Shown piece by piece: positions 47,747 to 64,000 of a stretch of 64,000 nucleotides of DNA. The stretch's first letter is position 1. The number at the start of each line of letters is the position of its first letter. The stretch covers positions 325,501-389,500 of the forward strand of contig NZ_NPZB01000001.1 in the NCBI RefSeq assembly GCF_002895945.1, given 5' to 3'. The notes under the pieces were generated by a model. It worked only from the letters and a program-made list of their open reading frames with translations. It made no database searches and was not told the origin of the DNA. The translations under genes were made by a program, and so were the position numbers. Source of the DNA: Solilutibacter silvestris (GTDB lineage Bacteria; Pseudomonadota; Gammaproteobacteria; Xanthomonadales; Xanthomonadaceae).

Positions 47747-50050
47747 TCAGTGTCGCCACCATGCGGCCGGAATCGCCGCCGCCTGCTGGCCTTCACGACC
47801 CACCTGCAAGCGCAGTTCGCGATCGCCACCGCCCTGGAAATAGCGCAATTCGAAGGTGTGCAACCCGCGCGCGAGGCCGATGTCGCCACTGGTGGTGCCG
47901 GGCGATTGCGGCCCGTCGCGATCGACCACCAGCGCGTCATCGATGTAGACGCGCGCCCCGTCATCCGACGCCAGCACGAAGTGGTAGATGCCGTCATCAG
48001 GAACATCGGCATAACCGCGATAGCGCAGGCCGAACTGTTCGGCGCGCGCGTCGGCGGGAATCGCGATGGCGTCGGCAACATCGCTGCGTTTCGGTGTCGC
48101 TGCCAGCAATGCGTCGGTGCGCGCAACGCCGACTTCGTAGTAATCGCGTTGCAACCCGGGTGCGAGCGCCGCAGCAGGAGCCGGACGCGCCGCATGCAGG
48201 GTGGTGAAACTGAAGCGCGCACGCTGCGTCGGGCCGAGGCGGCCATCCGGCAGCAGCAGACGCGCGGCAACCTGCACAGGCGTGTCACCCAGCGTCAGTT
48301 GCAGTGGCGTTTCATAGCGTGGCGATGCCGCATCCGGTGCACTGCCATCCAGGGTGTAGACGATGCGGGCGTCCGGCAACAGCGAACCCAGCGGCAACAT
48401 CAGATGCGGATCGAGCGAGGCACGATCGCCATCCAGCCCCTGCACTTCCGGAATGCGATAACTCACGTGCAGGCGATCGAGCTCGGCGAGCTGCGCCGGC
48501 AACCGCTGCACGAAGCCGTTCCAGTCGCGCGCGCCCTTCGGCGACCACAGCACTTCCGCCAGCGCCAGACTGCGCGGGAACAACATGTACTGCTGCGTCT
48601 GCGGTGTCTTCAGGTATTCGGTCCACAGATTGCCCTGGCCGCCGATGATGTGTGCCGCCTGCTCTGCGCTCAGGCCATCGGGCACCGGCTCGAAATCGTA
48701 GACCTTGTGCAGCGGCAGATTGCCGCCGATGCAGCGCGGTTCGTCAGGCGAGCGCGACTGGCAATAATCGAGATAGACATAACTGGTCGGTGACATCACC
48801 ACGTCATGGCCAAGACGTGCGGCCTCAATGCCACCCTGCATGCCGCGCCACGACATCACCGTCGCCGTCTGCGACGCACCGCCTTCGAGGATTTCGTCCC
48901 AACCAATGATCCTGCGGCCATGCGCACGCACGAATGCTTCGATGCGACGCAGGAACCAGCCTTGCAGCGCGTGCTCATCCTTCAAGCCCTCACGCTTGAT
49001 GATGTCCTGCGCCAGCGCGCTCTGTTTCCAGCGCGTGATCGGTGCCTCGTCGCCACCGACATGGATGACCGCCGACGGGAACACTTCCATCACTTCCGTG
49101 AGTACGCCTTCGACGAACTGGAAGGTCTGTTCACTCGGGCAGAGGATGTCGTCGGCCACGCCCCAGGTGGTCATCACTTCGAACGGACCCGGCGTGCACG
49201 CGAGTTCCGGGTAGGCCGCCAGCGCCGCCACCATGTGGCCGGGCATGTCGATTTCCGGGATCACCTCGATGTATCGTGCGCGCGCATAGGCGACGATCTC
49301 GCGTGCCTGCGCCTGCGTGTAATAGCCGCCGTAGGGAATGCCATCGCGTACCTTCGCGCCCTGGTTGGCATTGCCGACCAGTGTCTCCTTGCGCATCGAC
49401 GAAATCGTCGCCAGCTTCGGATAGCGCTTGATCTCCAGGCGCCAGCCCTGGTCATCGCTGATGTGCCAATGGAAGGTGTTGAATTTGTAGCGCGCCATCA
49501 CGTCGAGTTGCTGCTTGATCGCTGCCAGCGGCTGCATGTGGCGCGCGGAATCGAGCATCAGCCCGCGATAGCGGAAGCGCGGCTGGTCGGCGATGTGCAG
49601 CGCGGGGATGCCCGCGCGCGCATCACTGTCCGGCGTGGCGATCTGGCGCAGCGTCTGCAAGCCGTAGAACAATCCGGCATCGTTCGCGGCACGGATCACG
49701 ATGCCGCGCTTCGTCACCTGCAAGGTATAGGACTCGGGATCGCTGCCGGCAGCGGGCGCGAGCACGAGGCGCAGATCGGCCGGCGCATGTGTGGTCGCGC
49801 GGCCCACAGGACGATGCCAGGCCTCGCGCAGCACGTCGCTCGCGAGCGCAGTGATGGCGCGACGATCGCCGAGCCTTCCTTCCACCGAGACATGCAGCGT
49901 CTTGCCGGGATGGAAGTTGCCGGCGTCCATCGTCAACGAAGCCGGCATCGGAATCAGGGCTGGCACATCGGCTGCGGCAGCGTGCGCGGTCGTCGCGGCA
50001 AGCCCGACAGCAAGCAACATGGAAAACGGAATACGAAGATCAAGCTTCAT
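47747..50050 (-). CDS. Secreted GH20 beta-N-acetylhexosaminidase with C-terminal PA14-like domain
   Basis: The ATG at 50050 gives 767 residues with a signal peptide (LAATTAHA). A GH20b domain precedes the GH20 barrel (about 155-520). The barrel has NTFHWHISDDQGWRLEIK, the catalytic pair Asp334-Glu335 in HVGGDEAPITRW, and GGQGNLWTEYL. The tail has a chitobiase-C-like beta domain and a PA14-like module (YRGYADVPDDGIYHFVLASD with DGARVYID). It should remove terminal GlcNAc or GalNAc from glycans. It lies downstream of the TonB receptor but behind a strong terminator. Confidence 0.92.
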   Translation of the reverse strand: MKLDLRIPFSMLLAVGLAATTAHAAAADVPALIPMPASLTMDAGNFHPGKTLHVSVEGRLGDRRAITALASDVLREAWHRPVGRATTHAPADLRLVLAPAAGSDPESYTLQVTKRGIVIRAANDAGLFYGLQTLRQIATPDSDARAGIPALHIADQPRFRYRGLMLDSARHMQPLAAIKQQLDVMARYKFNTFHWHISDDQGWRLEIKRYPKLATISSMRKETLVGNANQGAKVRDGIPYGGYYTQAQAREIVAYARARYIEVIPEIDMPGHMVAALAAYPELACTPGPFEVMTTWGVADDILCPSEQTFQFVEGVLTEVMEVFPSAVIHVGGDEAPITRWKQSALAQDIIKREGLKDEHALQGWFLRRIEAFVRAHGRRIIGWDEILEGGASQTATVMSWRGMQGGIEAARLGHDVVMSPTSYVYLDYCQSRSPDEPRCIGGNLPLHKVYDFEPVPDGLSAEQAAHIIGGQGNLWTEYLKTPQTQQYMLFPRSLALAEVLWSPKGARDWNGFVQRLPAQLAELDRLHVSYRIPEVQGLDGDRASLDPHLMLPLGSLLPDARIVYTLDGSAPDAASPRYETPLQLTLGDTPVQVAARLLLPDGRLGPTQRARFSFTTLHAARPAPAAALAPGLQRDYYEVGVARTDALLAATPKRSDVADAIAIPADARAEQFGLRYRGYADVPDDGIYHFVLASDDGARVYIDDALVVDRDGPQSPGTTSGDIGLARGLHTFELRYFQGGGDRELRLQVGREGQQAAAIPAAWWRH

Positions 50051-50072
50051 GGCGACAAGTCCCTGCACGGCA

Positions 50073-50109
50073 AAAAAAAGGGGTCGGGACACCATGGTGC
50101 CCGACCCCG
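50073..50109 (-). terminator. Intrinsic terminator after the TonB-dependent receptor
   Basis: On the minus strand GGGGTCGGG (complement of 50101-50109) and CCCGACCCC (complement of 50081-50089) pair. An inner CACC/GGTG stem extends the hairpin, and eight T residues follow (50073-50080). It lies 17 bases after the receptor stop codon and so separates the receptor transcript from the GH20 gene, which would need read-through or its own promoter. Confidence 0.9.
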
Positions 50110-50125
50110 GACCGGATCACGAGGA

Positions 50126-53083
50126 TCAGAAGTGGTAAACGATTTCCGCAGACAGTTCGCGGCCCACCGGATCATCGACGCAGTAGGCGAAGTCGCCACA
50201 CCACTTGTCCTGATAGATCTTGTTGAGCAGGTTGGCCCCGTAGAAGTTGATCTTGAGATTATCGTTGAACTGATACCCCAGGCTGCCGTTGAAGTAGCGA
50301 CGCGCCGGACGATGTTCCTTGTGGGTGGCGGTCCACTGGCCATAGGTCGGGCTGGCAGGCGAGGACAAGTCCTGGCAATACGTGCCCGAGCTCGGGATGT
50401 AGCCATCGGCAAACGGCATGCAACCACCATAGCGATTGTCGCGGCCGCCCGCCTTCTGGTACATCGCCAGCGTCGCGTTCCAGCGTTGGTAGTTCCAGTT
50501 GACGTTGCCCGTGAACTTGTAGGTCGTCTGGTATGCGCGTGAATTCTCCAGCTGATCGGTCGGGAACTGGCGCGTCTCGTAGGTGATCTGGTTGGTCAGC
50601 GCCGCGCCGAGTCGGAAGGTGCCGATCCGCGTCTTGGGCAACGCGTAGTTCAGGTGGATGTCGAGCCCGCGGACATGGGTATCGGCACGATTGATCGGCT
50701 GGACATTGATCTGGGTGATGTTGCCGGCGAGGCTGCCGCCAGGCACGACCGGCGCACGGATGATGCGCTTGGCCACGTCTGCGCAATAGGTGGCGCTGGG
50801 CGGCGAGGCACGGGTGCTGCCATCCGGCGTCCAGTGGTACTTGCAGTACGCATCATCCAGCAACAACTGGTCTTCGCTGATGTCGTCGATCAGGTTCTTG
50901 ATCTTGATATCCCAGAGATCGACGCTGACCGAAAAGTTCTTGAACGCGTCCCAGACGAAACCGTAGGACAGCGACGTGCCGGTTTCATAGCGCAGGTCGG
51001 GCGAGCCCGAGCGCGAGATCACGATGTTGCTCGCCTTGTAGGTGTCGAATATGCATTGGCGATTCGGCCAGCCATCCAGATAGCACCAGTTGAGATCGGT
51101 CATGCTCTTGAGCCCGGTGCTCGGCTGCCGATAGATGAAGTTCATGTCCGGCGCGCGGAAGCTGGTGCCATAAGTGCCGCGGAACAGCAGCGTGCTGGTG
51201 GGACGGAACTCCAGGCCCATCTGGTAGGTCAGCTTGCCGGCATTCTGCGTCGCCTGGTACTTGTCGTAACGGGTCGCCAGATCGGCGGTCAACATCTTCA
51301 GCAACGGGACCTTGAACTCAAGCGCTGCGCCGTAATGACTGCGGGTGCCACCACCCTGCTGGATATTGCCGAACGGGGTGTACCAGCCATCCGGATCGTT
51401 GCTCAGCGTCTTCGGATCAGGCGTCAGGTGGTAGCCCTGCTTGCCGTATTCGAGCGTGCTGGCAAAACCGATCGGACCCGCCCAACCCTTGAACAGATCG
51501 CCACTCATCGTGACCTGTGCCTGGTTGAGGAAGGAAATCGCCTTGTTGTCGCCACGCTTGCTGAACGGCGCGGTATCGGATGCCGGCACCGGATTCCACA
51601 ACTTGTTGTAGTCGGGCTGGTAGATGGGATTGCCGTTGGCGGCGGTACCCAGCTGCGGCCCCATATAGTAGTCCTGCATCAGGCCCTGGTTGAGGGTCGG
51701 AAAGCTTTCGTGGTCCGAATACACGGCACGACCGACCGACGCTTCCCAGTCGTAGCGGTCGGCAATGCGGCCCCGCAGGCCGGCACTGAGATCGATCGAC
51801 GTTTCGCGGGAAATGGTCAGGACGTTCTTTTCGCCGCCCAGTTCACCCGGCGACTGGTACTTCAGGAAGCTGCGATCGCCACCGGCGCCGTTGTTGGCAC
51901 GCGGATCCCAATAGACGGGGCTGCCGAAGCCATCGAGGAAGGTGTTGAACTGACCCGAAGTCTTCCACACGCCGACCGAGGCCCAAGCCTCCAGCTTGTC
52001 GTTGACCTCATAGGTGCCGTACAGATAGCCGGAATCATTCTTGCTGCCGGTCTTCAGCGACCAGTTCTGGAACACGCGCTGCGCGCAGTACTGGCCGCCG
52101 TTGGATGCGGTTCCCGTGTTGCGATCGTAGGCGAGGCGACTGGCGAGGTAGTAGAGACTGCCGTACTGGTCGCAGGCCCCCGCCGGTGGCGCGATATAGG
52201 TGCGTCCGGTCGGATTTGCCGGCGCATCGCGGTCGCGCAGGTACAAGCCAGCGGACGGCGTCAACGCACCGACGCCGAAATGACGCTGGCCCGGACCCCA
52301 GTCCTGATATGGCACGTCGTCTTCGGAGTCCATGAAGGGACGATCCTTGGCCAGCAGCTGGCCGCGATAGAAATGCTGCAGGTCGTAGGTCAGGTTCCAT
52401 TTCTTGCCGCTGAGTCCGCCGGATGCCTCGAGGTCGAGGTTCCTGAAACCGCCCCGCGTGGCTTCGCCCCATTTGGCGCGCAGCGTCTGGCCCTGGGCGC
52501 TCTTCTTGAGGATGACATTGACCACGCCACCCATCGCATCCGAGCCATAGATCGCCGAAGCGCTACCCGTCAGCACTTCGATGCGATCGACGATGCCGGT
52601 CGGGATGTTGTTGAAATTGGCAACGTTGCCCTTGCCGCCGTAGGGCAACGGATAGTCGGCGACGCGGCGGCCGTTGATCAGCAACAGGCTGCGCCCGGGG
52701 CCGAGGTTGCGCAGGTTGAGCGGCTTGACGTTGACCGCGGACTGGCCCCAGTCGTAATCGTTCTGCACGTTGCCGACCGCTTCGGTCAGGCTGCGCACCG
52801 CTTCATACACGGTCGAAAAGCCTTCTTTCTTCAGCTGTTCGCCGGTCAACACGGTCACCGGCGCCGGGCCTTCCGCCTGCGAACGCTTGATGCGCGACCC
52901 CGTCACCACGACGGCATCGAGCTGGTTCTTGTCTTTTTCGCTTTTGTCTTTCTGCGCCTGGTCCGCTGGCGTGGCCTGCCCGTCCGGCTGCGTCTGCTGC
53001 GCATGGGCGTCAACGAGCGGGTACATCGCCAGCAGCAATGCGCCACTCAGCGCCGTGCACCGAAACACCTTGGAACGAGTCAT
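50126..53083 (-). CDS. TonB-dependent outer-membrane receptor, probable glycan importer
   Basis: The ATG at 53083 is spaced eight bases from GGAGAA; the protein has 985 residues. A signal peptide (DAHAQ) is followed by a plug domain with DAVVVTGSRIKRSQAEGPAPV, LLLINGRRVADY, IEVLTGSASAIYGSDAMGGVVN and then the barrel, ending REL-SAEIVYHF. It resembles the large carbohydrate-utilisation TonB receptors of Xanthomonadaceae rather than siderophore receptors. Adjacent GH20 and GH29 genes point to glycan uptake. A shared operator and a separate palindrome lie upstream. Confidence 0.93.
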   Translation of the reverse strand: MTRSKVFRCTALSGALLLAMYPLVDAHAQQTQPDGQATPADQAQKDKSEKDKNQLDAVVVTGSRIKRSQAEGPAPVTVLTGEQLKKEGFSTVYEAVRSLTEAVGNVQNDYDWGQSAVNVKPLNLRNLGPGRSLLLINGRRVADYPLPYGGKGNVANFNNIPTGIVDRIEVLTGSASAIYGSDAMGGVVNVILKKSAQGQTLRAKWGEATRGGFRNLDLEASGGLSGKKWNLTYDLQHFYRGQLLAKDRPFMDSEDDVPYQDWGPGQRHFGVGALTPSAGLYLRDRDAPANPTGRTYIAPPAGACDQYGSLYYLASRLAYDRNTGTASNGGQYCAQRVFQNWSLKTGSKNDSGYLYGTYEVNDKLEAWASVGVWKTSGQFNTFLDGFGSPVYWDPRANNGAGGDRSFLKYQSPGELGGEKNVLTISRETSIDLSAGLRGRIADRYDWEASVGRAVYSDHESFPTLNQGLMQDYYMGPQLGTAANGNPIYQPDYNKLWNPVPASDTAPFSKRGDNKAISFLNQAQVTMSGDLFKGWAGPIGFASTLEYGKQGYHLTPDPKTLSNDPDGWYTPFGNIQQGGGTRSHYGAALEFKVPLLKMLTADLATRYDKYQATQNAGKLTYQMGLEFRPTSTLLFRGTYGTSFRAPDMNFIYRQPSTGLKSMTDLNWCYLDGWPNRQCIFDTYKASNIVISRSGSPDLRYETGTSLSYGFVWDAFKNFSVSVDLWDIKIKNLIDDISEDQLLLDDAYCKYHWTPDGSTRASPPSATYCADVAKRIIRAPVVPGGSLAGNITQINVQPINRADTHVRGLDIHLNYALPKTRIGTFRLGAALTNQITYETRQFPTDQLENSRAYQTTYKFTGNVNWNYQRWNATLAMYQKAGGRDNRYGGCMPFADGYIPSSGTYCQDLSSPASPTYGQWTATHKEHRPARRYFNGSLGYQFNDNLKINFYGANLLNKIYQDKWCGDFAYCVDDPVGRELSAEIVYHF

Positions 53084-53183
53084 GACCATTTCTCCGATTG
53101 CTGGATGTATTGCGGCATTGGGCTGTAGCGGACATCGGACCGACTGCGCTCCCTCCGTTGGAAGGTCGCGAGCACTTCGGTTT

Positions 53184-53198
53184 AATGGTCCAGCCATT
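53184..53198. promoter_or_regulatory. Shared operator copy 1 (TonB receptor side)
   Basis: AATGGT-CCA-GCCATT is an inverted repeat with a 3-bp centre, carrying the core GGTCCAGCCA. It lies about 100 bases upstream of the receptor start codon and touches the neighbouring TTGGAACGTTCCAA palindrome. The layout (TGGT-N3-ACCA type) fits a GntR-family FCD regulator of the UxuR kind. Confidence 0.7.
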
Positions 53199-53535: not shown

Positions 53536-53549
53536 GCGACAGCTCTCCC

Positions 53550-54935
53550 ATGGCATGTATTTCCCGGCTCCATTGGCATCCCCTGTTCGCCGCACTGTTG
53601 GCGATCGCCACGCTCGCGCCACTCACCGCTGCTGCGGAGAATCCCGCACCAGCACCGCCAGTGGAAACGGCCGCGCACAAGGCCGAACGTATGCAGTGGT
53701 TCGCCGATGCCAAGCTCGGCATCTTCATCCACTGGGGCATCTACGCCGTCAATGGCATCGACGAGTCGTGGTCGTTCTTCAACGGCAAGATTTCCCATGC
53801 CGATTACATGAAGCAACTCGCAGGCTTCAGCGCCAGCAACTACAACGCGCAAGCCTGGGCCGATGCGATCAAGCGCAGCGGCGCGCGCTATGCGGTGCTG
53901 ACCACGCGCCATCACGATGGCGTGGCGTTGTGGGATTCGAAGCAGGGCATCAACGTGGTGCGCGAGTCGCCGGCCAAACGCGACCTGGTGGGGCCGTTCG
54001 TCAAAGCCTTGCGCAAGGATGATCTCAAGGTCGGGCTGTACTACTCGCTGCCGGATTGGTCGTACAGCGATTACGACGTGTTCACCCGCAAGGAGAAGCG
54101 CTACGACAGCAAGCAGGATCCGGCGCGCTGGCAACGTTATCTCGATTACTACCAGGGACAGATCGCCGACCTGCAGCATCGCTACAATCCCGACCTGGTG
54201 TGGTTCGACGGTGATTGGGAACATTCCGCCAGCGAATGGCAGTCGCCGAAGCTGCGTGCCGACATGCGTGCGCGCAACCCGCACATCATCATCAATTCGC
54301 GCCTCAACGAATACGGCGATTACGCCACGCCGGAACTTGGCCTGCCGGTGTTGAAGCCCGCGCAACCGTATTGGGAACTGTGCCTGACGATGAACAAGTC
54401 GTGGGGCTACCAGCCACGCGACAACGACTACAAGACGCCGAACCAGGTGCTGCAGATCTTCGTGCAGACGATCGCGATGGGCGGCAACCTGCTGCTCGAC
54501 ATCGGACCGAAACCCGATGGCAGCATCGATCCACGCCAGACCGACATCCTCGCCGCACTCGGGCGCTGGACCGGCAAGCACGCCGAAGCGATCTACGGCA
54601 GCCACGCCGGCATCGGCCTCGATCATTACGCAGGCGCGAGCACGCTGTCGAAGGATCGCAAGACGATCTACCTGTTCCTGACCGGACAACCCAACGGCGA
54701 CGTGCTGGTGAAGGGACTGGTGAACAAGGTGGTGCGCGCCCGCGTGATTGGCGGTGGCCAGGCGGTCGCGACGAAAGTGGTCGGCAAGTACGACTGGTCG
54801 AAACAACCGGGCCTGCTGTTCCTGACGGTTCCGCGCGCCGCGATCGATCGCGACATCACCGTGATCGCGCTGGAACTCGACGCGCCGGTGAAGTTGTACG
54901 AGGAAGAATCCAAACCCATCGAGAGCAACGGATGA
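53550..54935 (+). CDS. GH29 alpha-L-fucosidase, secreted (first of three)
   Basis: The 461-residue protein has a signal peptide (about 1-28, LTAAA). The GH29 barrel shows AKLGIFIHWGIYAVNG, AVLTTRHHDGVALWDS, GLYYSLPDWSYSDY and the nucleophile Asp220 in DLVWFDGDWEH, close to the GH29A pattern SDGEW. GGNLLLDIGPKPDGSI follows. It hydrolyses alpha-L-fucosyl bonds. No clear ribosome-binding site precedes the ATG. Its stop overlaps the next fucosidase start by four bases, making it the head of the operon. Confidence 0.93.
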   Translation: MACISRLHWHPLFAALLAIATLAPLTAAAENPAPAPPVETAAHKAERMQWFADAKLGIFIHWGIYAVNGIDESWSFFNGKISHADYMKQLAGFSASNYNAQAWADAIKRSGARYAVLTTRHHDGVALWDSKQGINVVRESPAKRDLVGPFVKALRKDDLKVGLYYSLPDWSYSDYDVFTRKEKRYDSKQDPARWQRYLDYYQGQIADLQHRYNPDLVWFDGDWEHSASEWQSPKLRADMRARNPHIIINSRLNEYGDYATPELGLPVLKPAQPYWELCLTMNKSWGYQPRDNDYKTPNQVLQIFVQTIAMGGNLLLDIGPKPDGSIDPRQTDILAALGRWTGKHAEAIYGSHAGIGLDHYAGASTLSKDRKTIYLFLTGQPNGDVLVKGLVNKVVRARVIGGGQAVATKVVGKYDWSKQPGLLFLTVPRAAIDRDITVIALELDAPVKLYEEESKPIESNG

Positions 54936-56425
54936 AGACCATGCGCAGATTGTTGTTCGCCGCGTTGGCGCTGGCATGCACGGCACCCGTGGTGCATGCC
55001 GAAGACACTGGCCCCTACGTCGCCGAAACCGACCCTGCGGTGCTGCGCAAGCTTGAGCGCTGGGAAGACTGGAAGTTCGGTTTCATGATGCACTGGGGCG
55101 CGTACAGCCAGTGGGGGGTGGTCGAATCGTGGTCGCTCTGTTCGGAAGACGTCGACTGGTGCGGCCCGCCGAAGCACAACAAGTTCACCGAAAAGTACGC
55201 CAACGATTACGTCGGCTACGTCAAGGCATATGAAAAGCTGCCGACCACCTTCAATCCGGTGAAGTTCGATCCTGACCGCTGGGCGGGTATCGCGAAAGAT
55301 GCCGGGATGAAGTACGTGGTGTTCACCACCAAGCACCACGATGGCTTCTCGATGTTCGACACCAGGCAAACCAATTACCGCATCACCGCCGCCAACGTGC
55401 CTTTCCATTCCAATCCGCGCGCCAACGTGGCGAAGGAAGTGTTCAGCGCGTTCCGCAAGCAGGGCTTCGGCATCGGCGCCTATTTCTCCAAGGCCGACTG
55501 GCACAGCCAGGATTACTGGTGGCCGCGCTTCGCCACACCCAACCGTTATACCAATTACGACACGCGCAAATACCCGCAACGCTGGCAGGACTTCGTCAAG
55601 TTCACCCATGCCCAGATCGGCGAACTGACCAATGGCGACTATGGACCGATCGACATCCTGTGGCTGGATGCCGGCTGGGTGCGCCCGGCGCGTGCCGACG
55701 ATAACAAGGACATCACCGACATCGGCGCCTTCCGGCCCGGCCCCGAGGACATCGACATGCCCGGCTTGGCGAAGATCGCACGCCACAATCAGCCGGGATT
55801 GATCATCGTCGATCGCGCGGTCGGCGGCCGTTACGAGAATTACCGCACGCCCGAGCAGCAGGTGCCGGACAAGCCGCTGTCGTATCCGTGGGAAACCTGC
55901 ATGACGCTGGGTGATTCGTGGTCGTTCGCGCCGCACGATCATTACAAGAGTGCGCACAAGGTCGTGCATCTGCTCGCCGATGTCGTCGCCAAGGGCGGCA
56001 ACTTCCTGCTCAACGTCGGTCCCGATGGCAATGGCGAATTGCCGCCGGAAGCAGTGGAGCGTTTGCATCAGGTCGGCCAGTGGATGCGCGTCAATGGCGA
56101 AGCGATCTACGCCAGCCGCGCGATCGCGCCGTACAGCAGCGGCAAGTTCCGCTACACGCGCCTGCGCGACGGCACGGTGTATGCGATCTATCTACCGGAT
56201 GACAACGAACAACAGTTGCCGGCACAGTTGAAGATCCCCGGGCCGGCGCCGGCACGCGGCGCCCAGGTCCGGTTGCTCGGCAGCGATGCCGCATTGGCAT
56301 GGACACGCGAGGGCGACGCCACGATCGTCACCATCGCGGACGCGGTGCGATCGACATCCAAAGGCGCGTATGCGTGGGTATTCCGCCTGCCCGGTGCCGC
56401 AGCGAAATCGGACGGCAAACGATGA
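54932..56425 (+). CDS. GH29 alpha-L-fucosidase, secreted (second)
   Basis: The ATG at 54932 gives 497 residues with a signal peptide (ACTAPVVHA). The barrel has WKFGFMMHWGAYSQWGVVESW, VVFTTKHHDGFSMFDT, AYFSKADWHSQDYWW and nucleophile Asp246 in DILWLDAGWV; GGNFLLNVGPDGNGEL marks the barrel end and a small beta domain follows. It differs enough from the first enzyme to suggest a different linkage preference. It is ATGA-coupled to both neighbours. Confidence 0.93.
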   Translation: MKTMRRLLFAALALACTAPVVHAEDTGPYVAETDPAVLRKLERWEDWKFGFMMHWGAYSQWGVVESWSLCSEDVDWCGPPKHNKFTEKYANDYVGYVKAYEKLPTTFNPVKFDPDRWAGIAKDAGMKYVVFTTKHHDGFSMFDTRQTNYRITAANVPFHSNPRANVAKEVFSAFRKQGFGIGAYFSKADWHSQDYWWPRFATPNRYTNYDTRKYPQRWQDFVKFTHAQIGELTNGDYGPIDILWLDAGWVRPARADDNKDITDIGAFRPGPEDIDMPGLAKIARHNQPGLIIVDRAVGGRYENYRTPEQQVPDKPLSYPWETCMTLGDSWSFAPHDHYKSAHKVVHLLADVVAKGGNFLLNVGPDGNGELPPEAVERLHQVGQWMRVNGEAIYASRAIAPYSSGKFRYTRLRDGTVYAIYLPDDNEQQLPAQLKIPGPAPARGAQVRLLGSDAALAWTREGDATIVTIADAVRSTSKGAYAWVFRLPGAAAKSDGKR

Positions 56426-58080
56426 CACGCATTCCAGCCTTCCTCGCTACAGTCGCGATCTCCGTGGTGGCATCGACTGCATTCGCTGGCGATGTGCCGG
56501 CACGCTTCAGCGATGGCCACGACGATCCGCGCACCGCCTATCCCGCACTCAGTCACGATGGCAAAGGCAAAGGCGATAGCGCCTGCACCGTCGATGTGCT
56601 GCAACACGGCTTCGCCAGCTTCGATCCCGCCCGCGCCACGCTGGATGCGTCGCGTCAGTGTCCCGGGCCGTGGTCGAAAGTGGTGCTGGTGCTCGACGGC
56701 AAGGTCAAGGGCCGCCAATACGATCGCATCGGCGATATCGAGGTCGGCGGCGTCACCGTGCTGCGTACCAGCACCCCGGAACCGTCGCAGCAAGGCATCG
56801 GCTGGCGCGTCGAAAAGGACGTGAGCGCCTATGCGCCGCTGTTCGCGGCATCGCAGCCGGTGGAGATGCATCTCGGCAACGTCATCAATGCCACCTATAC
56901 CGGTGTCTTCGAGGTGCGCGTCGCCTTGAAGTTCTATCCGGTCACGGCGGATCAACGTGCAATCGCCAGCGCCGACGCGGTGGTGCCCCTCGACCATCTG
57001 CACGAGGATGGCCGCGATACTGTTGGCGATTTCGTGTTGCCCGGCAACGCCGAACGCCTGGTCGCCGAGGTCTACGCCACCGGATCCGGCGGTGGCTGCG
57101 AGGAATTCTGGTATTACGCGACGCCGGCGAAGAAGGACTATTTCTGTCGCGCCGAACAGGGGCCGTATCGCGAAGTGCAGGTGTTGCTCGATGGCAAGCT
57201 GGCCGGCATCGCCGCGCCCTATCCGCACATCTACACCGGCGGCTGGAGCAATCCCTATCTCTGGTACGCGATCCCGGCGCCACGCGCATTCGACATCCAT
57301 CCGATCCGCTACGAGCTGACGCCCTTCATCGGCCTCGTCAACGACGGCAAACCGCACACGCTGCGCCTGCAAGTGGCCGGCCTCAGCGAAGGTCGCGAAG
57401 GCTGGAAGCTGCTGCCGAACCTGCATGTCTGGCGCGACGCCGGCAGCGCACGCGTGCGTGGCGAACTGATGGCAGTGGATCCCGGCAAGGTCACGCTCGA
57501 CAACACCATGGGCGATGACAGCGGCGGGAACGTGCAGACCTTGCAATCGCGTTGGCAGCATCGGTTCGCCGCACGTGGTCGCGTGTTTACTTCGCATGGG
57601 GTGATCGAAACCACGGCGGAACGTGAGATCGATGGCCGCGTGGGGCATCGCTGGACGAAAATCGAGGACGGCGACGATCGCCTCGATGCCGATTGGCGCG
57701 ATCGCGACACCATCGTCCGCACCCGTGGCGGCAACAAAAATATCGACACCAATGACCAGCGTTTCGGTCTTGTCGGCAGCGTCGGCACGCGCGATGTCGG
57801 CGACCAACCGCGCCTGACTTCAACGATCGTCATCCACGACGATACCGATCGCACATCGACGCAGGGATCGAAAAAGCGTTGGCAACGCAGCCGCGATCTT
57901 TTCGAGGGCAGCGCCAGCTATTTCACCAAGCTCAAGCGCGACCAGCGTGAAGCCACCGCCAGTTCACGCCAGATCTATCGCGTGGAGGGCAACGACGGCC
58001 AGTGCTTCCAACGCGAACTTGCCAGCCGCAACGGACGATTCGTCGCGGACAAAAGCGCAAACTGCAAGGAAACACGATGA
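56422..58080 (+). CDS. Peptide-N-glycanase A-like glycoamidase (PF12222-type)
   Basis: The 552-residue secreted protein (signal ending STAFA, residue 22) matches plant PNGase A in order and spacing. It has GRQYDRIGDIEVGGVTVLRT with RQYDRI at 98-103, GIGWRVEKDVSAYAPLF, LGNVINATYTGVFEVRVALKFYP, EVYATGSGGGCEEFWYYATP (EEFWYY 227-232), GPYREVQVLLDG and YTGGWSNPYLWY (273-281). PNGase A releases whole N-glycans from asparagine and accepts core alpha-1,3-fucosylated plant glycans. It is coupled by ATGA to the fucosidase before it. Catalytic activity is inferred. Confidence 0.85.
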   Translation: MTRIPAFLATVAISVVASTAFAGDVPARFSDGHDDPRTAYPALSHDGKGKGDSACTVDVLQHGFASFDPARATLDASRQCPGPWSKVVLVLDGKVKGRQYDRIGDIEVGGVTVLRTSTPEPSQQGIGWRVEKDVSAYAPLFAASQPVEMHLGNVINATYTGVFEVRVALKFYPVTADQRAIASADAVVPLDHLHEDGRDTVGDFVLPGNAERLVAEVYATGSGGGCEEFWYYATPAKKDYFCRAEQGPYREVQVLLDGKLAGIAAPYPHIYTGGWSNPYLWYAIPAPRAFDIHPIRYELTPFIGLVNDGKPHTLRLQVAGLSEGREGWKLLPNLHVWRDAGSARVRGELMAVDPGKVTLDNTMGDDSGGNVQTLQSRWQHRFAARGRVFTSHGVIETTAEREIDGRVGHRWTKIEDGDDRLDADWRDRDTIVRTRGGNKNIDTNDQRFGLVGSVGTRDVGDQPRLTSTIVIHDDTDRTSTQGSKKRWQRSRDLFEGSASYFTKLKRDQREATASSRQIYRVEGNDGQCFQRELASRNGRFVADKSANCKETR

Positions 58081-58090
58081 CGGACCAACC

Positions 58091-59506
58091 ATGAGCCACT
58101 CGGGAATCTCGCGGCGCGGTTTCCTCGGCACCTTGGGTGCGGGCGGACTCGCTGCCGCATTGCCACTTGGCGCGAAAAACATCGCAACGCCGGGAATGCG
58201 GCCGCGCCCAAGCCTCTCGCAACTGGCATGGCAGCGCGAGGAACTGACGATGTTCGTGCACTTCGGCATGAATACCTTCAGCGACCGCGAATGGGGCGAC
58301 GGCCGCGAATCGCCATCCGCATTCGCGCTTTCGAAGCTGGACGCACGGCAATGGGCGCGCGCGGCGAAGCAAGCCGGTTTCGGCAGCATGATCCTCACCG
58401 CGAAGCACCACGACGGCTTCTGCCTGTGGCCGACGGCGACCACGCGCCATTCGGTGGCGGCAAGCCCGTGGCGCGATGGCCACGGCGACGTGGTCCGCGA
58501 GTTCACCGATGCCTGTCGCGCCGAAGGCTTGCGCGCGGGTCTGTATCTGTCGCCGTGGGACCGCAATCATCCGACGTATGGGCAAGGTGACGCCTACAAC
58601 GATATCTACATCGCTCAACTCACGGAGTTGCTGACGCACTACGGGCGGCTGTTCGAACTGTGGTTCGACGGCGCCAATGGCGAAGGCCCGGATGGCCGAC
58701 ACCAGCACTACGATTGGGCGCGCATCCACGCCACCGTACGCAAGCTGCAACCGGATGCGGTGATGTTTTCCGATGCTGGTCCCGATCTGCGCTGGGTCGG
58801 CAACGAACACGGCAGCGCCGGCGCAACCAACTGGAGCACGGTCGATCCCGCGCGCGTATCCGCGCCGGGCGCGAACGATCCCTGGACCACCGAGGCGCTG
58901 CAACAGGGAGATCCCGATGGCAGCGTGTGGCGACCAGCCGAAACCGATGTCTCAATCCGCCCCGGCTGGTTCTGGCATGCGAACGAATCAAGCAAGGTCC
59001 GTTCGCCCGACAACCTTTTGGAACTGTATTTCAGCTCGGTCGGACGCAACAGCAAACTGTTGTTGAACGTACCACCGAACCGCGACGGCTTGATCGATGC
59101 CGCTGATCTCGCCGTGCTGTCCGCTTTCCGCGCGCGTCGTGACGAACTGTTTGCGCACGACCTGTTGCGAGATGCCCGCACAGTGCATCGCAACGATTCC
59201 CTCGAATTCGAACTTGCCAAACCTGCGACCTTCGATGTCATCCGCCTGCAGGAAGACATCGCGCACGGACAACACGTCGCCGGCTATCGCCTGCAGGCAC
59301 ACGATGGTTCCGACTGGCACACCATCCACTGGGGCAACACCATCGGATATACGCGACTGGCACGGATCGCCCCGACCACTGCACAGCGCCTGCGCCTGCT
59401 GATCGATTTCGCCTACGGCAGTCCGCGCATCGCCCGCGTTGCGTTGTTCCGCGATCCGCGGACCTCAGGCATGCGCAAGCGCAGCGACGATCACGGCGAC
59501 GCCTGA
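58091..59506 (+). CDS. GH29 alpha-L-fucosidase with Tat signal (third, GH29B-like)
   Basis: The 471 residues start with a twin-arginine leader (GISRRGFLGTLGAGGLAAAL), so it should be exported folded. The barrel has TMFVHFGMNTFSDREWGDG, MILTAKHHDGFCLWPT, LYLSPWDRNHPTYGQ and nucleophile Asp193 in FELWFDGANGEGP. WFWHANESSKVRSPDNLLELYF follows, and a C-terminal beta domain binds or shapes the site. This is the GH29B pattern, usually alpha-1,3/1,4-specific. It begins ten bases after the PNGase-like gene in the same operon. Confidence 0.9.
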   Translation: MSHSGISRRGFLGTLGAGGLAAALPLGAKNIATPGMRPRPSLSQLAWQREELTMFVHFGMNTFSDREWGDGRESPSAFALSKLDARQWARAAKQAGFGSMILTAKHHDGFCLWPTATTRHSVAASPWRDGHGDVVREFTDACRAEGLRAGLYLSPWDRNHPTYGQGDAYNDIYIAQLTELLTHYGRLFELWFDGANGEGPDGRHQHYDWARIHATVRKLQPDAVMFSDAGPDLRWVGNEHGSAGATNWSTVDPARVSAPGANDPWTTEALQQGDPDGSVWRPAETDVSIRPGWFWHANESSKVRSPDNLLELYFSSVGRNSKLLLNVPPNRDGLIDAADLAVLSAFRARRDELFAHDLLRDARTVHRNDSLEFELAKPATFDVIRLQEDIAHGQHVAGYRLQAHDGSDWHTIHWGNTIGYTRLARIAPTTAQRLRLLIDFAYGSPRIARVALFRDPRTSGMRKRSDDHGDA

Positions 59507-59513
59507 GCGCCGC

Positions 59514-61946
59514 TCACTCGACGATTTCGAACTCACCCGTCTGGCGAATATCGTCGGACGCCGATCCGATCATCACCCGGAACATCCCCGGCTCGACCAC
59601 GCGTTGCATTTGGCGATTCAACAGCGCGAGATCGGCGGGCTTGAGGGTGAAATGCAGGGTCCGCGTTTCTCCCGGCGCCAACTGGACGCGCTCGAAGCCA
59701 CGCAGGTTCTTCTCATAGGTGGTCACCGAGCTGACCAGATCACGGGTGTAGAGCTGCACCACTTCGTCGCCGGCACGGTTGCCGCTGTTGCGCACATCCA
59801 CCGACACCTCGACATTGCTGCCGTTGCGCTGCTTGGTCGGCGTGATGCGCAGGTTGTCGTAGGCGAAGCTTGTGTAACTCAGGCCGTGGCCGAAGTTGTA
59901 GAGCGCGCCATTGACCCGCGAGCGCTCGCCTTCCCATTGCGCGTTCGGCTTGGTTGGGAAATTGAAGGGAATCTGGCCCGCCGTCTTCGGGAATGTCACC
60001 GTCAGCTTGCCGCCGGGGTTGTAATCGCCAAACAATGCGTCGGCCACCGCGGTGCCACCCTGGTTGCCCGGGAACCACGCTTCGAGGATCGCCGGCACAT
60101 GCGCAGCGGCCCAGTTCACCGCGATTGGCCGCCCATTGATCAACACCAGCACCACCGGCGTGCCGGTCGCGGCCACCGCTTCCAGCAACGCTTCCTGGCG
60201 CCCGGGCAGATCGAGGCTGGTGCGGCTGCGACTTTCGCCCACCGTGCGTCGACCATCGCCGAGCACCACCACCGCGACATCCGCGCCCTTCGCCGCGCGC
60301 ACAGCCTCGTCGATGCCGGCCTGTTCTTCCGCGCTCAACGGTTCCGGCAGGATCTCGATCTGCGGCCAGTTCTTGCCGGCGATCTCCACGCCTTTCGCAT
60401 AACGCGCCTGCACGCCGGGCCCGAGCTTGGCGGCAATGCCTTCGCGCACGCTGATGGCATGGCCGCCGGAGGGTCCGTACTGGCGATGCGCGTAACTGGC
60501 ATCGTCGGCATTGGGGCCGATCACCGCGATGCTCCGGATCGCCTTGCGCAACGGCAACGCGCCGTTCGTGTTCTTCAGCAGCACCAGGCTTTCGCGCGCC
60601 GCCCGCAACGCCAGGGCACGATCTTCCGTGGTATCGACCTTGCCGCGCGCCGCGTTGGCGTCGCCGATATAGGGGTGGTCGAACAGGCCCACCGTGAATT
60701 TCACCCGCAACACGTCGCGTACGCGCGCATCGATCACCGACATCGGCAACGCGCCTTCGCGCACCAGCGCGTGCAGCGGCGTCAGGTAGACCTCGGGCGG
60801 GGTGAACGTCGTGCGGACATTCAACCCGGCATCCACGGCCTGGCGCACGGCTTCCTTGTAGTCGCCGGCCACCGCGTGCTTGCTGTGCAGGTATTCCACC
60901 GCGTCGCTGTCGGACACCACGTAACCGTGGAAACCGAAGTCCTTGCGCAGGCGATCGGTGAGCCAGTATTTGCTGCCGGTGATCGGCACGCCGTCGTAGT
61001 CGTTGTAGGAGCTCATCACCCCGAGCAGTCCGGCTTCACGGATCGCCGCGGCGAACGACGGCAACAACACATCCTCGACTTCGCGCGGCGCCACTTGCGG
61101 ATCGGTGCGGGCCTCGCCTTCGCGCGCGCCCTTGTTGGCGCTGTACACCGCGAAATGTTTGGCGGTCGACGCGATTAGATGATCGCGCTGCATGCCCTTC
61201 ACCATCGCCACGCCCATCCGTGAGGCGAGGAAGGGATCCTCGCCGTACGATTCCTCGGTGCGGCCCCAGCGCTGGTCACGGACCACGTCGAGCACCGGCG
61301 CATAGACATTGGTGTAGCCGAGCGCACGCCCCTCGACCGCCATCACCCCGCCGATGCGTTCCGCCAGCGCCGGGTCCCAGGTGTTGCCGACGCCGAGTTC
61401 GGAAGGAAAATTGGTCGCGAACGCCGAGGCCACGCCACGCAATCCTTCGTTGGTGAAATCGGCGGGAACGCCCAGCCGCGTCTGCTCGATGAAGAAGCGT
61501 TGCACCTGGTCCATCGCCCAGGCGTGCTTGTCGAAATCGAGCGCGTACTGCGACTTCGAACCATCGCCGTGCTCGCTGCCGTCACCGAAAGCGTTGAGGT
61601 GCTCGTCGATGTTGGCGATGCCGTCCTTCCACGGTTGCTGTTTCCAGAGCGCGGTCGGCAGTTCGTCGTCGAGCACGCGACCGTAACCGTACAACGTCAC
61701 CATCTGCGCGGTCTTCTCGTCCGGCGTCATCCGCGAGAGGAGATCGTCGATGCGGGCGTCGATCGGCGCGGACGGATCCTCGTATACATCCTTGCGGCCA
61801 TTCTTGTTGAGGTCGATCCAGCCTTGGTGGTAGATGCCGGGCATTGGCGCAAAGGCGACCGGGCCGGGCGTCTGCGCCGAAGCGCTCGCCACGCAGGCCA
61901 GGGCGAGGCCGACCAGACCCGATGCGCGCGGGAACTTGGATGTCAT
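59514..61946 (-). CDS. Secreted GH3 glycoside hydrolase (beta-glucosidase/xylosidase type)
   Basis: The 810 residues have a signal peptide (ACVASASA) and a short acidic DLNKNGRKDVYEDPS segment like a calcium-binding loop. The GH3 barrel has RWGRTEESYGEDPFLASRMG, TAKHFAVYSANKG and the nucleophile Asp346 in GYVVSDSDAVEYL. A GH3 C-terminal sandwich and fibronectin-III-like tail follow. Specificity cannot be read from the sequence; a beta-xylosidase would suit plant N-glycans. It converges with the third fucosidase and is divergent from the fucose operon; an operator copy lies 51 bases upstream. Confidence 0.9.
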   Translation of the reverse strand: MTSKFPRASGLVGLALACVASASAQTPGPVAFAPMPGIYHQGWIDLNKNGRKDVYEDPSAPIDARIDDLLSRMTPDEKTAQMVTLYGYGRVLDDELPTALWKQQPWKDGIANIDEHLNAFGDGSEHGDGSKSQYALDFDKHAWAMDQVQRFFIEQTRLGVPADFTNEGLRGVASAFATNFPSELGVGNTWDPALAERIGGVMAVEGRALGYTNVYAPVLDVVRDQRWGRTEESYGEDPFLASRMGVAMVKGMQRDHLIASTAKHFAVYSANKGAREGEARTDPQVAPREVEDVLLPSFAAAIREAGLLGVMSSYNDYDGVPITGSKYWLTDRLRKDFGFHGYVVSDSDAVEYLHSKHAVAGDYKEAVRQAVDAGLNVRTTFTPPEVYLTPLHALVREGALPMSVIDARVRDVLRVKFTVGLFDHPYIGDANAARGKVDTTEDRALALRAARESLVLLKNTNGALPLRKAIRSIAVIGPNADDASYAHRQYGPSGGHAISVREGIAAKLGPGVQARYAKGVEIAGKNWPQIEILPEPLSAEEQAGIDEAVRAAKGADVAVVVLGDGRRTVGESRSRTSLDLPGRQEALLEAVAATGTPVVLVLINGRPIAVNWAAAHVPAILEAWFPGNQGGTAVADALFGDYNPGGKLTVTFPKTAGQIPFNFPTKPNAQWEGERSRVNGALYNFGHGLSYTSFAYDNLRITPTKQRNGSNVEVSVDVRNSGNRAGDEVVQLYTRDLVSSVTTYEKNLRGFERVQLAPGETRTLHFTLKPADLALLNRQMQRVVEPGMFRVMIGSASDDIRQTGEFEIVE

Positions 61947-61996
61947 CTGCGATCTCCAGTCCGGGACTGCCGCCCGGCGATGGCGGTCACGATAGC

Positions 61997-62011
61997 ATCG
62001 GTCCAGCCAAT
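61997..62011. promoter_or_regulatory. Shared operator copy 3 (GH3 gene)
   Basis: ATCGGT-CCA-GCCAAT carries the core GGTCCAGCCA with imperfect arms. It lies 51 to 65 bases upstream of the GH3 start codon, in the 138-bp region shared with the divergent fucose operon. Confidence 0.65.
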
Positions 62012-62058
62012 CGGCCCGCCGAACGCCATTTTCATCCGATTCGGGCTACTATCCGGCA

Positions 62059-62073
62059 ATTGGTTGGACCATT
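62059..62073. promoter_or_regulatory. Shared operator copy 4 (fucose catabolic operon)
   Basis: ATTGGT-TGG-ACCATT is the reverse-strand form (core GGTCCAACCA on the minus strand). It sits just downstream of a TACTAT -10-like hexamer (62047-62052) and directly before the AAGGA ribosome-binding site of the dehydrogenase gene, a position suited to repression. Confidence 0.75.
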
Positions 62074-62084
62074 AAGGACGCGAG

Positions 62085-62852
62085 ATGCGACTCAAGGGCA
62101 AACGGGCACTGGTCACTGCGGCCGGACAAGGCATCGGTCGGGCGACGGCGCTGGCGTTCGTACGCGAGGGCGCGCAGGTGATCGCCGCCGACATCAATGA
62201 AGAGGCACTGGCGGCGCTGGCCGCAGAAGCAGGACCGGCGCTGACGCCGCTGCATCTCGACGTCACCAACCTTGCAGCCATCGCCGAACTCGGACGACAC
62301 CACGACACTGCCGGCAGCGCGCTCGACGTGCTGTACAACGGCGCCGGGTTCGTCCACAGCGGCAGCATCCTCGACGCCACCGAGCAGGAATGGAACTTCG
62401 CCTGGAAGCTCAATGTCGATGCGATGTTCCACCTGATCCGTGCATTGCTGCCGGGCATGCTCGCGCGCGGCAGCGGTGCGATCATCAACGTCGCGTCGGT
62501 GGCATCCAGCATCAAGGGCGTGCCCAATCGTTTCATCTACGGCACCACCAAAGCCGCGGTGATCGGCTTGACCAAAGCCGTGGCGGCGGATTTCGTCGGT
62601 CGCGGCATCCGCTGCAACGCGATCTGCCCGGGCACGGTGGAATCGCCGTCGCTACAGCAACGCATCGCCGAACAGGCGCAGACGCAGGGCAATACCAACG
62701 ATGCGGTGCACGCCGCGTTCGTCGCCCGCCAGCCAATGGGACGCCTCGGCACGCCGGAGGAAATCGCCGCGCTGGCGGTCCATCTCGCCAGCGACGAATC
62801 GGCCTTCACCACCGGCACCACCCACGTGATCGACGGCGGCTGGATCAACTGA
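62085..62852 (+). CDS. SDR dehydrogenase, probable 2-keto-3-deoxy-L-fuconate dehydrogenase
   Basis: The 255-residue short-chain dehydrogenase has the cofactor motif VTAAGQGIGRATALAF, Asp in AADIN (preferring NAD), NGAGFV and the catalytic triad in NVASVASSIKGVPNRFIYGTTKAA (Ser, Tyr-x-x-x-Lys). It ends with DGGWIN. The closest match I know is the Xanthomonas enzyme that oxidises 2-keto-3-deoxy-L-fuconate to the 2,4-diketo acid. Genes for the following hydrolase and for L-fuconate dehydratase come next, which supports this over L-fucose dehydrogenase. Confidence 0.85.
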   Translation: MRLKGKRALVTAAGQGIGRATALAFVREGAQVIAADINEEALAALAAEAGPALTPLHLDVTNLAAIAELGRHHDTAGSALDVLYNGAGFVHSGSILDATEQEWNFAWKLNVDAMFHLIRALLPGMLARGSGAIINVASVASSIKGVPNRFIYGTTKAAVIGLTKAVAADFVGRGIRCNAICPGTVESPSLQQRIAEQAQTQGNTNDAVHAAFVARQPMGRLGTPEEIAALAVHLASDESAFTTGTTHVIDGGWIN

Positions 62853-62862
62853 GGACACCGCG

Positions 62863-63708
62863 ATGAAACTCCTGCGCCACGGCCAGAAAGGCCGGGAAAA
62901 ACCCGCCCTGCTCGATCGCGATGGTCGCATTCGTGATCTTTCCGCCCACATCGACGACATCGCCGGCGATGTGTTGACGCCTGAGGGACTGCAACGATTG
63001 CGCGCGCTCGATGCCGATGCATTGCCTGCGGTCGAAGGCACGCCACGCATCGGCGCCTGTGTCGGCGCCATCGGCAAGTTCGTGTGCATCGGCCTGAACT
63101 ACGCCGACCATGCCGCCGAAACCGGCGCGCAGCCGCCGAAGGAACCGGTGATCTTCAACAAGTGGACCAGCGCGGTGTGCGGTCCGAATGATGATGTCGA
63201 GATCCCGCGCGGTTCGCACAAGACCGATTGGGAAGTGGAGCTCGGCGTGGTGATCGGGCGCGGTGGCCGCTACATCGACGAAGCCGATGCGATGTCGCAC
63301 GTTGCCGGTTACTGCGTGATCAACGATGTCTCCGAGCGCGAATTCCAACTGGAAGGCACCGGCACCTGGGACAAGGGCAAGGGCTGCGATACCTTCGGAC
63401 CGATCGGTCCGTGGCTGGTCACCGCCGATGAAGTTCTCGATCCGCACGCGCTCGGCCTGTGGCTGGAGGTCGATGGCCATCGCTACCAAAACGGCAACAC
63501 GCGCACGATGATCTTCCGCGTCCCGCTCCTGATCAGTTACCTCAGCCGCTTCATGAGCCTGCAACCGGGCGACGTGATTTCCACCGGCACGCCGCCGGGT
63601 GTCGGCCTTGGGCAGAAACCGCAACCGATTTACCTGCGCACCGGACAAACGATGCGACTCGGCATCGACGGACTCGGTGAGCAACAGCAAAAGGTGGTGC
63701 AGGCATGA
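62863..63708 (+). CDS. FAH-family hydrolase, probable 2,4-diketo-3-deoxy-L-fuconate hydrolase
   Basis: The 281 residues carry the fumarylacetoacetase fold: FVCIGLNYADHAAETG, PVIFNKWTSAVCGPNDDVEIP, the metal-binding TDWEVELGVVIGRGGRY, GYCVINDVSEREFQ and the loop DVISTGTPPGVGLGQKP. In the non-phosphorylated fucose pathway this enzyme splits the diketo acid to pyruvate and L-lactate. It starts ten bases after the SDR gene and overlaps the dehydratase gene by four bases. Confidence 0.87.
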   Translation: MKLLRHGQKGREKPALLDRDGRIRDLSAHIDDIAGDVLTPEGLQRLRALDADALPAVEGTPRIGACVGAIGKFVCIGLNYADHAAETGAQPPKEPVIFNKWTSAVCGPNDDVEIPRGSHKTDWEVELGVVIGRGGRYIDEADAMSHVAGYCVINDVSEREFQLEGTGTWDKGKGCDTFGPIGPWLVTADEVLDPHALGLWLEVDGHRYQNGNTRTMIFRVPLLISYLSRFMSLQPGDVISTGTPPGVGLGQKPQPIYLRTGQTMRLGIDGLGEQQQKVVQA

Positions 63709-64000
63709 GCGCATCCGTGCGCATCACCGGCATGCGGGTGGAAGACCTGCGCTTCCCGACCTCGCAGCAACTCGACGGATCGGATGCGATGAATCCCGAT
63801 CCCGACTATTCCGCCGCCTACGTGGTGCTGGAAACCTCGCGCGACGGACTGGAAGGCCACGGCCTGACCTTCACCATCGGTCGCGGCAACGAGATCTGTT
63901 GCGCGGCGATCGAAGCGATGCGGCATCTGGTGGTCGGGCTCGAACTCGACTGGATCAGCGAAGACATGGGGCGTTTCTGGCGTCACGTCACCGGCGACAG
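63705..64000 (+). CDS. fucD: L-fuconate dehydratase, N-terminal part (runs off the window)
   Basis: The visible 98 residues (VEDLRFPTSQQLDGSDAMNP, DPDYSAAYVVLETSRDGLEG, GLTFTIGRGNEI) match the capping domain of L-fuconate dehydratase of the enolase superfamily, known from Xanthomonas campestris. It removes water from L-fuconate to give 2-keto-3-deoxy-L-fuconate. The barrel with the metal ligands is beyond the end of the window. Its start is ATGA-coupled to the hydrolase gene. Confidence 0.9.
   Translation, partial: MSASVRITGMRVEDLRFPTSQQLDGSDAMNPDPDYSAAYVVLETSRDGLEGHGLTFTIGRGNEICCAAIEAMRHLVVGLELDWISEDMGRFWRHVTGD

Follow-up and report, generated by a model that had tools for sequence, protein, structure and literature searches.

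Which substrate is served by a bacterial gene cluster in which a predicted peptide:N-glycanase (PNGase) of the PNGase A type lies amidst several alpha-L-fucosidases? This question is raised by a locus of Solilutibacter silvestris on contig NZ_NPZB01000001.1 (assembly GCF_002895945.1), first seen in a stretch of 64,000 nucleotides at positions 325,501 to 389,500, in the following termed the window. With a probability of roughly 80%, the locus enables feeding on fucosylated and probably xylosylated, that is plant-type, N-glycans via PNGase A-like release, trimming and catabolism of the resulting sugars. A preliminary description of the window had likewise proposed that plant-type or other fucosylated N-glycans are stripped, trimmed and imported and that their fucose is used. 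This is well borne out by the protein families, by a predicted PNGase Bb-like fold and by the complete set of L-fucose pathway families, whereas plant and insect or other fucosylated N-glycan sources cannot be told apart from sequence.

The predicted PNGase belongs to the PNGase A/H+ superfamily, inside PF12222. In profile searches of the genome (2.85 Mb) and of the window open reading frames (ORFs), it matches PF12222 at 223-225 bits (E 4.3e-66), far above the cut-off of 25.3 and in agreement with the earlier assignment, and the family is found only once in the whole genome. Its predicted structure matches solved PNGase Bb (9vla) over 506 residues, corresponding to nearly the full length; PNGases rank well above every other row in the structure-comparison list, a ranking by which other families are not thereby excluded. 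PNGase Bb was solved in complex with the MUXF glycopeptide, which we take to be plant-type. An alignment of 22 PNGase homologues contains 46 invariant columns. The window PNGase is outside the PNGase F superfamily profiles PF09112 and PF09113, the latter finding no PNGase F-type gene genome-wide, and it is matched by no NCBIfam model. As a mere guess on our part, D101-R102 of the window PNGase might be the equivalent of Asp60-Arg61 of PNGase F. Residues Asp60 and Glu206 of the latter are named in PMC12753239.

The Pfam profile scan of the window ORFs, on which the family calls are based, confirmed the components previously read from the window, namely GH20 (glycoside hydrolase family 20), a TonB receptor, three GH29 fucosidases, one of them with twin-arginine (Tat) signal and of GH29-B type, the PNGase A-type protein, GH3 and the start of fucose catabolism. 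They are arranged as follows, with likely start codons for the GH29 and PNGase ORFs (that of GH29a picked by eye) and with window numbering continued beyond the edge as position on contig C1 minus 325500:

47747..50095, minus strand: GH20 beta-N-acetylhexosaminidase with C-terminal CHB_HEX and PA14 (PF00728, E 1.7e-116; PF07691)
50126..53197, minus strand: TonB-dependent outer-membrane receptor TBDT1 (PF00593, PF07715)
53550..54935 (ORF from 53400), plus strand: GH29a alpha-L-fucosidase (PF01120, E 3.9e-89)
54932..56425 (ORF from 54215), plus strand: GH29b alpha-L-fucosidase (PF01120, E 9.5e-92; PF16757)
56422..58080 (ORF from 56299), plus strand: predicted PNGase A/H+-type peptide:N-glycanase, PNGaseA (PF12222)
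58091..59506 (ORF from 57947), plus strand: GH29c, nearest to alpha-1,3/4-fucosidases (PF01120, E 8.1e-35)
59514..61946, minus strand: GH3 beta-glycosidase (PF00933, PF01915, PF14310)
62085..62852, plus strand: short-chain dehydrogenase/reductase (SDR), probable L-2-keto-3-deoxyfuconate 4-dehydrogenase FucF (best solved matches 8y4j/8xwk, 305 bits)
62863..63708, plus strand: FAA-hydrolase family protein, probable 2,4-diketo-3-deoxyfuconate hydrolase FucG (PF01557; 8gsr, 309 bits)
63705..65003 (continued; L002:205-1503), plus strand: L-fuconate dehydratase FucC/FucD, starting within the window (MR_MLE; 1yey, 582 bits)
65008-66714 (continued): GH29d, the fourth GH29

Four-base ATGA overlaps at the GH29a/GH29b and GH29b/PNGaseA junctions and a distance of only 10 bases between PNGaseA and GH29c make GH29a-GH29b-PNGaseA-GH29c look like one coupled operon. 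TBDT1 and GH20 are transcribed in the opposite direction from a common intergenic region, with TBDT1 just upstream of GH20. After GH29d, the order continues with a lactonase-family amidohydrolase, L-fucose dehydrogenase, mutarotase, FucP, an LldD-like protein, a GntR regulator and the second TonB receptor (TBDT2), followed by GH92, LacI, PfkB, the third receptor (TBDT3), a tryptophan-halogenase family protein, GH2, a mannose-isomerase-like protein, a second GH92 and tamB. Hence, the locus extends over about 46 kb from ubiA (46813-47724) to near 93.6 kb in continued numbering, adjoining tamB, with about 30 kb lying past the window edge. The range 47747..64000 originally assigned to it contains the families as described, but it represents only the fucose half. 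The proposed distinction from a mannosidase-centred locus does not hold: just beyond the window edge lie genes for two alpha-mannosidases of GH92, for a beta-mannosidase-like GH2 protein containing mannosidase domains and probably for mannose catabolism, and the contrast resulted from this edge effect.

All four PF01120 (GH29) genes of the genome sit within the locus, and judged from their solved relatives they fall into about three kinds. GH29a and GH29b both have 6gn6 as best solved match (244 and 177 bits, respectively). GH29c is best matched by 4zrx (427 bits), 8ayr and the alpha-1,3/4-fucosidase 3ues (369 bits), with 6gn6 at only 94 bits, and is by sequence GH29-B-like and nearest to alpha-1,3/4-fucosidases. 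The solved structures nearest to GH29d are 9rzy, 9rzx and 9s0x, followed by the B. asteroides enzyme and AlfC. For GH3, the best solved match is 7zb3 at 547 bits, compared to 432 bits for the top entry named beta-glucosidase; the closest solved entries are annotated as beta-xylosidase and xylosidase, a match from which linkage specificity cannot be read. Taken together, GH29, GH3, GH20, GH92 and GH2 would cover fucose, xylose, N-acetylglucosamine (GlcNAc), alpha-mannose and beta-mannose, so that the enzyme families match the sugars expected in a fucosylated, xylosylated N-glycan. N-termini of PNGaseA, GH29a, GH29b, GH29d, GH3 and GH20 appear Sec-like by eye, and the translation of GH29c shows a twin-arginine SRRGFL signal. 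TBDT3 scores above the TIGR01782 cut-off, none of the three TonB receptors reaches the SusC/RagA cut-off, and no SusD was found among the locus genes scanned. The tryptophan-halogenase-family gene that adjoins a TonB receptor gene of the mannose half (L030:6232-7755, continued 84732-86255) is kept in two other genomes of the genus, G005 and G007. A second N-glycan cluster on contig C2 was considered and dismissed: according to the nine ORFs scanned there, the third GH92 gene of the genome has genes for glutamate dehydrogenase, methionine synthase, acyl-CoA dehydrogenase, NAD kinase, exonuclease and kynureninase as neighbours.

For fucose, a non-phosphorylating pathway (route 3) is complete by family, with FucA, FucB, FucC, FucF and FucG all present. 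L-fucose dehydrogenase matches NF052481 at 423 bits (cut-off 300) and the FucP permease matches TIGR00885 at 317 bits (cut-off 280), while the amidohydrolase belongs to PF04909, the family of the pathway lactonase. For the dehydratase, the SDR and the FAA hydrolase, the solved matches belong to the non-phosphorylating fucose route or to its homologue for rhamnose; 8XWK is L-KDFDH (PMC11199699), and 8gsr, the match of the FucG candidate, is L-2,4-diketo-3-deoxyrhamnonate hydrolase, a homologue from the rhamnose route. Further fucose-side genes encode a RhaM-family mutarotase, an FMN L-lactate dehydrogenase-like (LldD-like) protein and the GntR regulator. Genes for mannose catabolism are probably present as well, as suggested by similarity of a GlcNAc-2-epimerase-family protein to D-mannose isomerase and of the PfkB kinase to fructokinase.

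From gene content, gene order, family, fold and phylogeny, all of them observed, we infer the activities, the order of steps, the site of PNGase action and the source of the substrate. An exported PNGase A-type enzyme would cleave glycoproteins or glycopeptides hydrolytically at the Asn-GlcNAc bond, even in the presence of core alpha-1,3-fucose, and TonB receptors would carry glycans or glycopeptides across the outer membrane. Exported exo-enzymes might then remove fucose (four GH29), xylose (GH3), GlcNAc (GH20), alpha-mannose (two GH92) and beta-mannose (GH2). L-Fucose would enter via the FucP-type permease and be oxidized without phosphorylation to pyruvate and L-lactate, the latter being a candidate substrate of the LldD-type enzyme. 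Mannose would probably be channelled through the mannose-isomerase-like protein and then the fructokinase-like PfkB.

In overlapping samples of relatives, family genomes and genomes drawn across the phylum, PF12222 is present in 8 of 100, 36 of 395 and 4 of 398 genomes, respectively; among 14 control genomes, it occurs in Sulfolobus acidocaldarius only. To examine the surroundings of PF12222 matches, stretches of about 20 kb were taken from all 36 family genomes (one or two places where several weak ones occurred; stretches of G253 and G174 being short upstream due to contig ends). Stop-to-stop ORFs of at least 90 aa in these stretches received their labels from phmmer comparison with reference proteins of the window locus, L005 and L006 (E 1e-6). 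The proposed neighbourhood of PF12222 and GH29 was recovered in six of the 36 genomes, with genes similar to GH29a, GH29b and GH29c within about 10 kb of PNGaseA; in the remaining 30, no GH29 was detected around the places examined. The former comprise the window genome (G000), G005, G125, G129 (Lysobacter Root494), G224 (P. helianthi) and G363 (P. sangjuensis). In all six, GH29b adjoins PNGaseA, and in five the order GH29a-GH29b-PNGaseA is consecutive. Best-labelled TBDT1 homologues occur at four of the six linked loci, the window locus included, and GH3 near PNGaseA at three. Aspartylglucosaminidase-family, CutC and glucokinase genes are present at three linked loci, of which those of Lysobacter Root494 and Pseudoxanthomonas sangjuensis also have GH35.

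Aspartylglucosaminidase-family (PF01112) genes near PNGaseA are located at L004:14991-16052, L005:1669-2940 and L006:1930-3087 and possibly serve GlcNAc-Asn remnants; the window genome has two PF01112 matches elsewhere, on contig C2. In G125 (contig C33), PF09113 is found at 198868-199182, about 14 kb from the PNGase A-GH29 operon (PF12222 at 183601-184485), and both PNGase superfamilies may serve one region there. At loci L007-L011 (Lysobacter Root690 and four Actinomycetota), no reference protein besides the PNGase was detected. A distant PF12222 group from further family genomes (L077, L026, L028, L076 and others) reaches 50-107 bits to the window PNGase and shows no reference glycosidases nearby.

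A maximum-likelihood tree was calculated from 22 PNGases, one being the window protein and the other 21 being drawn from 48 homologous ORFs; alignment and tree exclude duplicate genomes, some of the nearly identical orphans, a single Streptomyces sequence and the group at the greatest distance (at most 107 bits). The six GH29-linked PNGases form one group with a support of 100/100. GH29 linkage requires a single change on the tree, a value not reached in any of 500 shuffles (shuffled mean 4.8), the label clustering partly through close kin sharing loci. This group spans four genera (g1, g17, g29 and g39), with g17 and g29 also containing orphan copies.

Within the genus, GH92 is present in six and GH29 in four of 17 genomes. 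In the 38 kb analysed of G007, ubiA, GH20, GH29d, kdp genes and a mannose module of GH92-LacI-PfkB-TBDT3-halogenase-GH2-epimerase-GH92 are found without the PNGaseA block and without any fucose-pathway reference, while G005 shows ubiA, GH29d, kdp genes and the PNGaseA-fucose block, followed by the same mannose module. Judging from these arrangements, the PNGaseA-fucosidase-fucose block acts as a module in its own right, separable from the N-glycan mannose module to which it is joined. G005 also possesses a fifth GH29. The kdp genes inside the N-glycan region (L085:12097-19798, L089/L090) encode KdpA, KdpC, KdpD and a response regulator in G007 as well as KdpA and an E1-E2 ATPase in G005; none were seen in the window's locus. 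On balance, we lean towards a single recruitment of a Lysobacteraceae PNGase A lineage into N-glycan operons, which in this genus would have given a contiguous locus leading from release to the burning of fucose and mannose. The GC content (0.638 in the PNGase block, 0.630 in the mannose module and 0.649 in the flank) gives no sign of recent foreign origin. A simple clean insertion between ubiA and tamB was discarded: these genes are on one contig in eight of the 17 genomes (on different contigs in the other nine), at distances of about 46 kb in the window genome, about 53 kb in G005 and 11-13 kb in six genomes without GH92 (G003, G004, G010, G011, G013 and G016), and in these six the orientation of ubiA is reversed relative to tamB.

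Several findings weigh against feeding on fucosylated, plant-type N-glycans or against single parts of it. PF12222 occurs in 30 family genomes without nearby GH29 and in Sulfolobus acidocaldarius, and hence the family alone does not signify an N-glycan locus. Fucose-pathway genes beyond a regulator or permease-like protein lie within about 10 kb at two of the six linked loci, so that the claimed tie of a PNGase A-fucosidase operon to fucose degradation applies to these two and was not seen within this distance in the others. The closeness of GH29d to alpha-1,6-type fucosidases is not plant-specific. No GH35 beta-galactosidase was found among the locus genes scanned (it was not sought genome-wide), and full Lewis-a antennae might consequently not be trimmed. 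The only GH18 match of the genome, outside the locus on contig C2 (G000:C2:1116044-1117075), could be an alternative releasing enzyme. This GH18 protein could be a peptidoglycan or an N-glycan enzyme. On the mannose side, the GlcNAc-2-epimerase-family protein matches D-mannose isomerase at 213 bits, under the cut-off of 600, and the fructokinase-like PfkB is likewise under its curated cut-off. No activity test of the window PNGase was found in the literature searched. In a panel of 13 PNGase H+ enzymes assayed on denatured horseradish peroxidase (HRP) at pH 2, those of Frateuria and Dyella were better than Terriglobus roseus PNGase H+ and those of Xanthomonas theicola, A. capsulatum and K. albida comparable to it, while the remainder, by exclusion including PNGase Le of Lysobacter enzymogenes, was negligible (PMC7348039); family membership thus is no guarantee of activity under this assay. 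It is conceivable, albeit unlikely, that the window PNGase is catalytically weak as well or has another target, and that other organisms release the N-glycans which the locus then uses in free form: several bacterial PNGase A homologues were almost inactive in the assay used (PMC7348039) and free N-glycans occur in plant tissues (PMC5700972), but the predicted near full-length fold, the 46 invariant columns over 22 homologues, the coupled position with GH29b and the lack of any PF09113 match to a PNGase F-type gene in the genome speak against this.

Regarding the diet, the same mechanism might instead target invertebrate, animal or protist N-glycans with core alpha-1,3- and/or alpha-1,6-fucose from soil prey or detritus, a tentative but possible explanation. 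Solved relatives of GH29d, AlfC and the B. asteroides enzyme, are described as alpha-1,6-fucosidases (PMC10154630, PMC11189522), and a Bacteroides PNGase accepts insect-type as well as plant glycans (PMC9522356). That the scanned locus genes include no GH35 beta-galactosidase that would act on Lewis-a antennae points in the same direction. In contrast, the GH3 between PNGase and fucose genes, a family present near PNGaseA at three of six linked loci, is nearest to beta-xylosidases, xylose being typical of plant N-glycans, and the MUXF glycopeptide bound by PNGase Bb is, as we presume, plant-type. That the locus serves another fucosylated polymer (xyloglucan, arabinogalactan, fucosylated pectin or exopolysaccharide) with the PNGase as a passenger appears very improbable: GH29, GH3 and GH20 by themselves are not specific for N-glycans, yet no GH31, GH74, GH95, polysaccharide lyase or other endo-acting backbone enzyme was found among the locus genes scanned, two GH92 and the GH2 beta-mannosidase-like gene suit N-glycans, and the PNGase-GH29b pair is kept in all six linked loci despite differing wider surroundings.

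The conserved operon points to a natural role of bacterial PNGase A in feeding on fucosylated glycoproteins, whereas its homologues appear in the literature examined mainly as laboratory tools. Core alpha-1,3-fucose blocks PNGase F, and the locus offers matched fucosidases, a likely xylosidase and mannosidases for work on plant and insect N-glycans. The GH29-linked group is a sensible place to seek active bacterial PNGases, and members of the published panel may already belong to it. In case of a single recruitment, bacterial PNGase A enzymes would be nutritional counterparts of the plant enzymes, and GH29a and GH29b would be dedicated core or antennary N-glycan fucosidases.

Compared to known systems, the window protein has PF12222 and the near full-length PNGase Bb fold in common with the PNGase A/H+ superfamily (almond PNGase A, Terriglobus PNGase H+, Dyella PNGase Dj and PNGase Bb). 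PNGase A enzymes have been called broadly eukaryotic, with putative ones in Actinobacteria and Proteobacteria (PMC12381499, 2025); the T. roseus enzyme releases core alpha-1,3-fucosylated glycans (PMC4231336), and homologues of L. enzymogenes and X. theicola have been cloned and assayed (PMC7348039). What differs is that the window group sits in an N-glycan operon with GH29; the published panel, absent from the 22-protein tree, may overlap this group. Plant N-glycan loci of gut Bacteroides also combine a PNGase accepting core alpha-1,3-fucose with GH92, a GH3 xylosidase, GH29 and GH2, but their PNGase is of the PNGase F type (group 2), they employ SusC/D, and in B. massiliensis the genes are distributed over more than one locus (PMC9522356). 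By contrast, the window locus has a PNGase A-type enzyme and TonB receptors and is contiguous, with fucose and probable mannose catabolism included. Another relevant case is Runella zeae, a member of the Bacteroidota. Its PNGaseRz acts selectively on glycans with core alpha-1,3-fucose and is encoded in what is likely an operon, together with alpha-fucosidases and an alpha-mannosidase, but it is of the PNGase F superfamily and accompanied by GH18 and asparaginase (PMC12381499).

A further known system is the nix cluster of Xanthomonas campestris and Xanthomonas citri. Its enzyme list, as generally understood, includes the GH18-like NixF. Belonging to the same bacterial family, this cluster has a TonB receptor, GH29 and other hydrolases for plant N-glycans, with no PNGase being named for it in the text consulted (PMC5700972), and X. 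campestris has a GH92 (PMC10154615). The window locus likewise holds a TonB receptor, GH29, mannosidases and a hexosaminidase together, whereas counterparts of NixF and of the beta-galactosidase NixL were not seen among the genes scanned (no GH18, no GH35). The route 3 L-fucose pathway of Xanthomonas and others comprises the same FucA, FucB, FucC, FucF, FucG, mutarotase and FucP families (PMC11199699), but in the window genome it is physically joined to a PNGase-GH29 operon. In a literature search mostly at title and abstract level, no description of a PF12222 enzyme inside a bacterial N-glycan locus was found. PNGase F-led N-glycan loci, the Xanthomonas nix cluster and assayed bacterial PNGase A homologues are already known, and against this background the locus is best regarded as an N-glycan locus of the TonB type with a PNGase A/H+ enzyme at its head, a variation on known sugar-feeding loci rather than a new kind of system.

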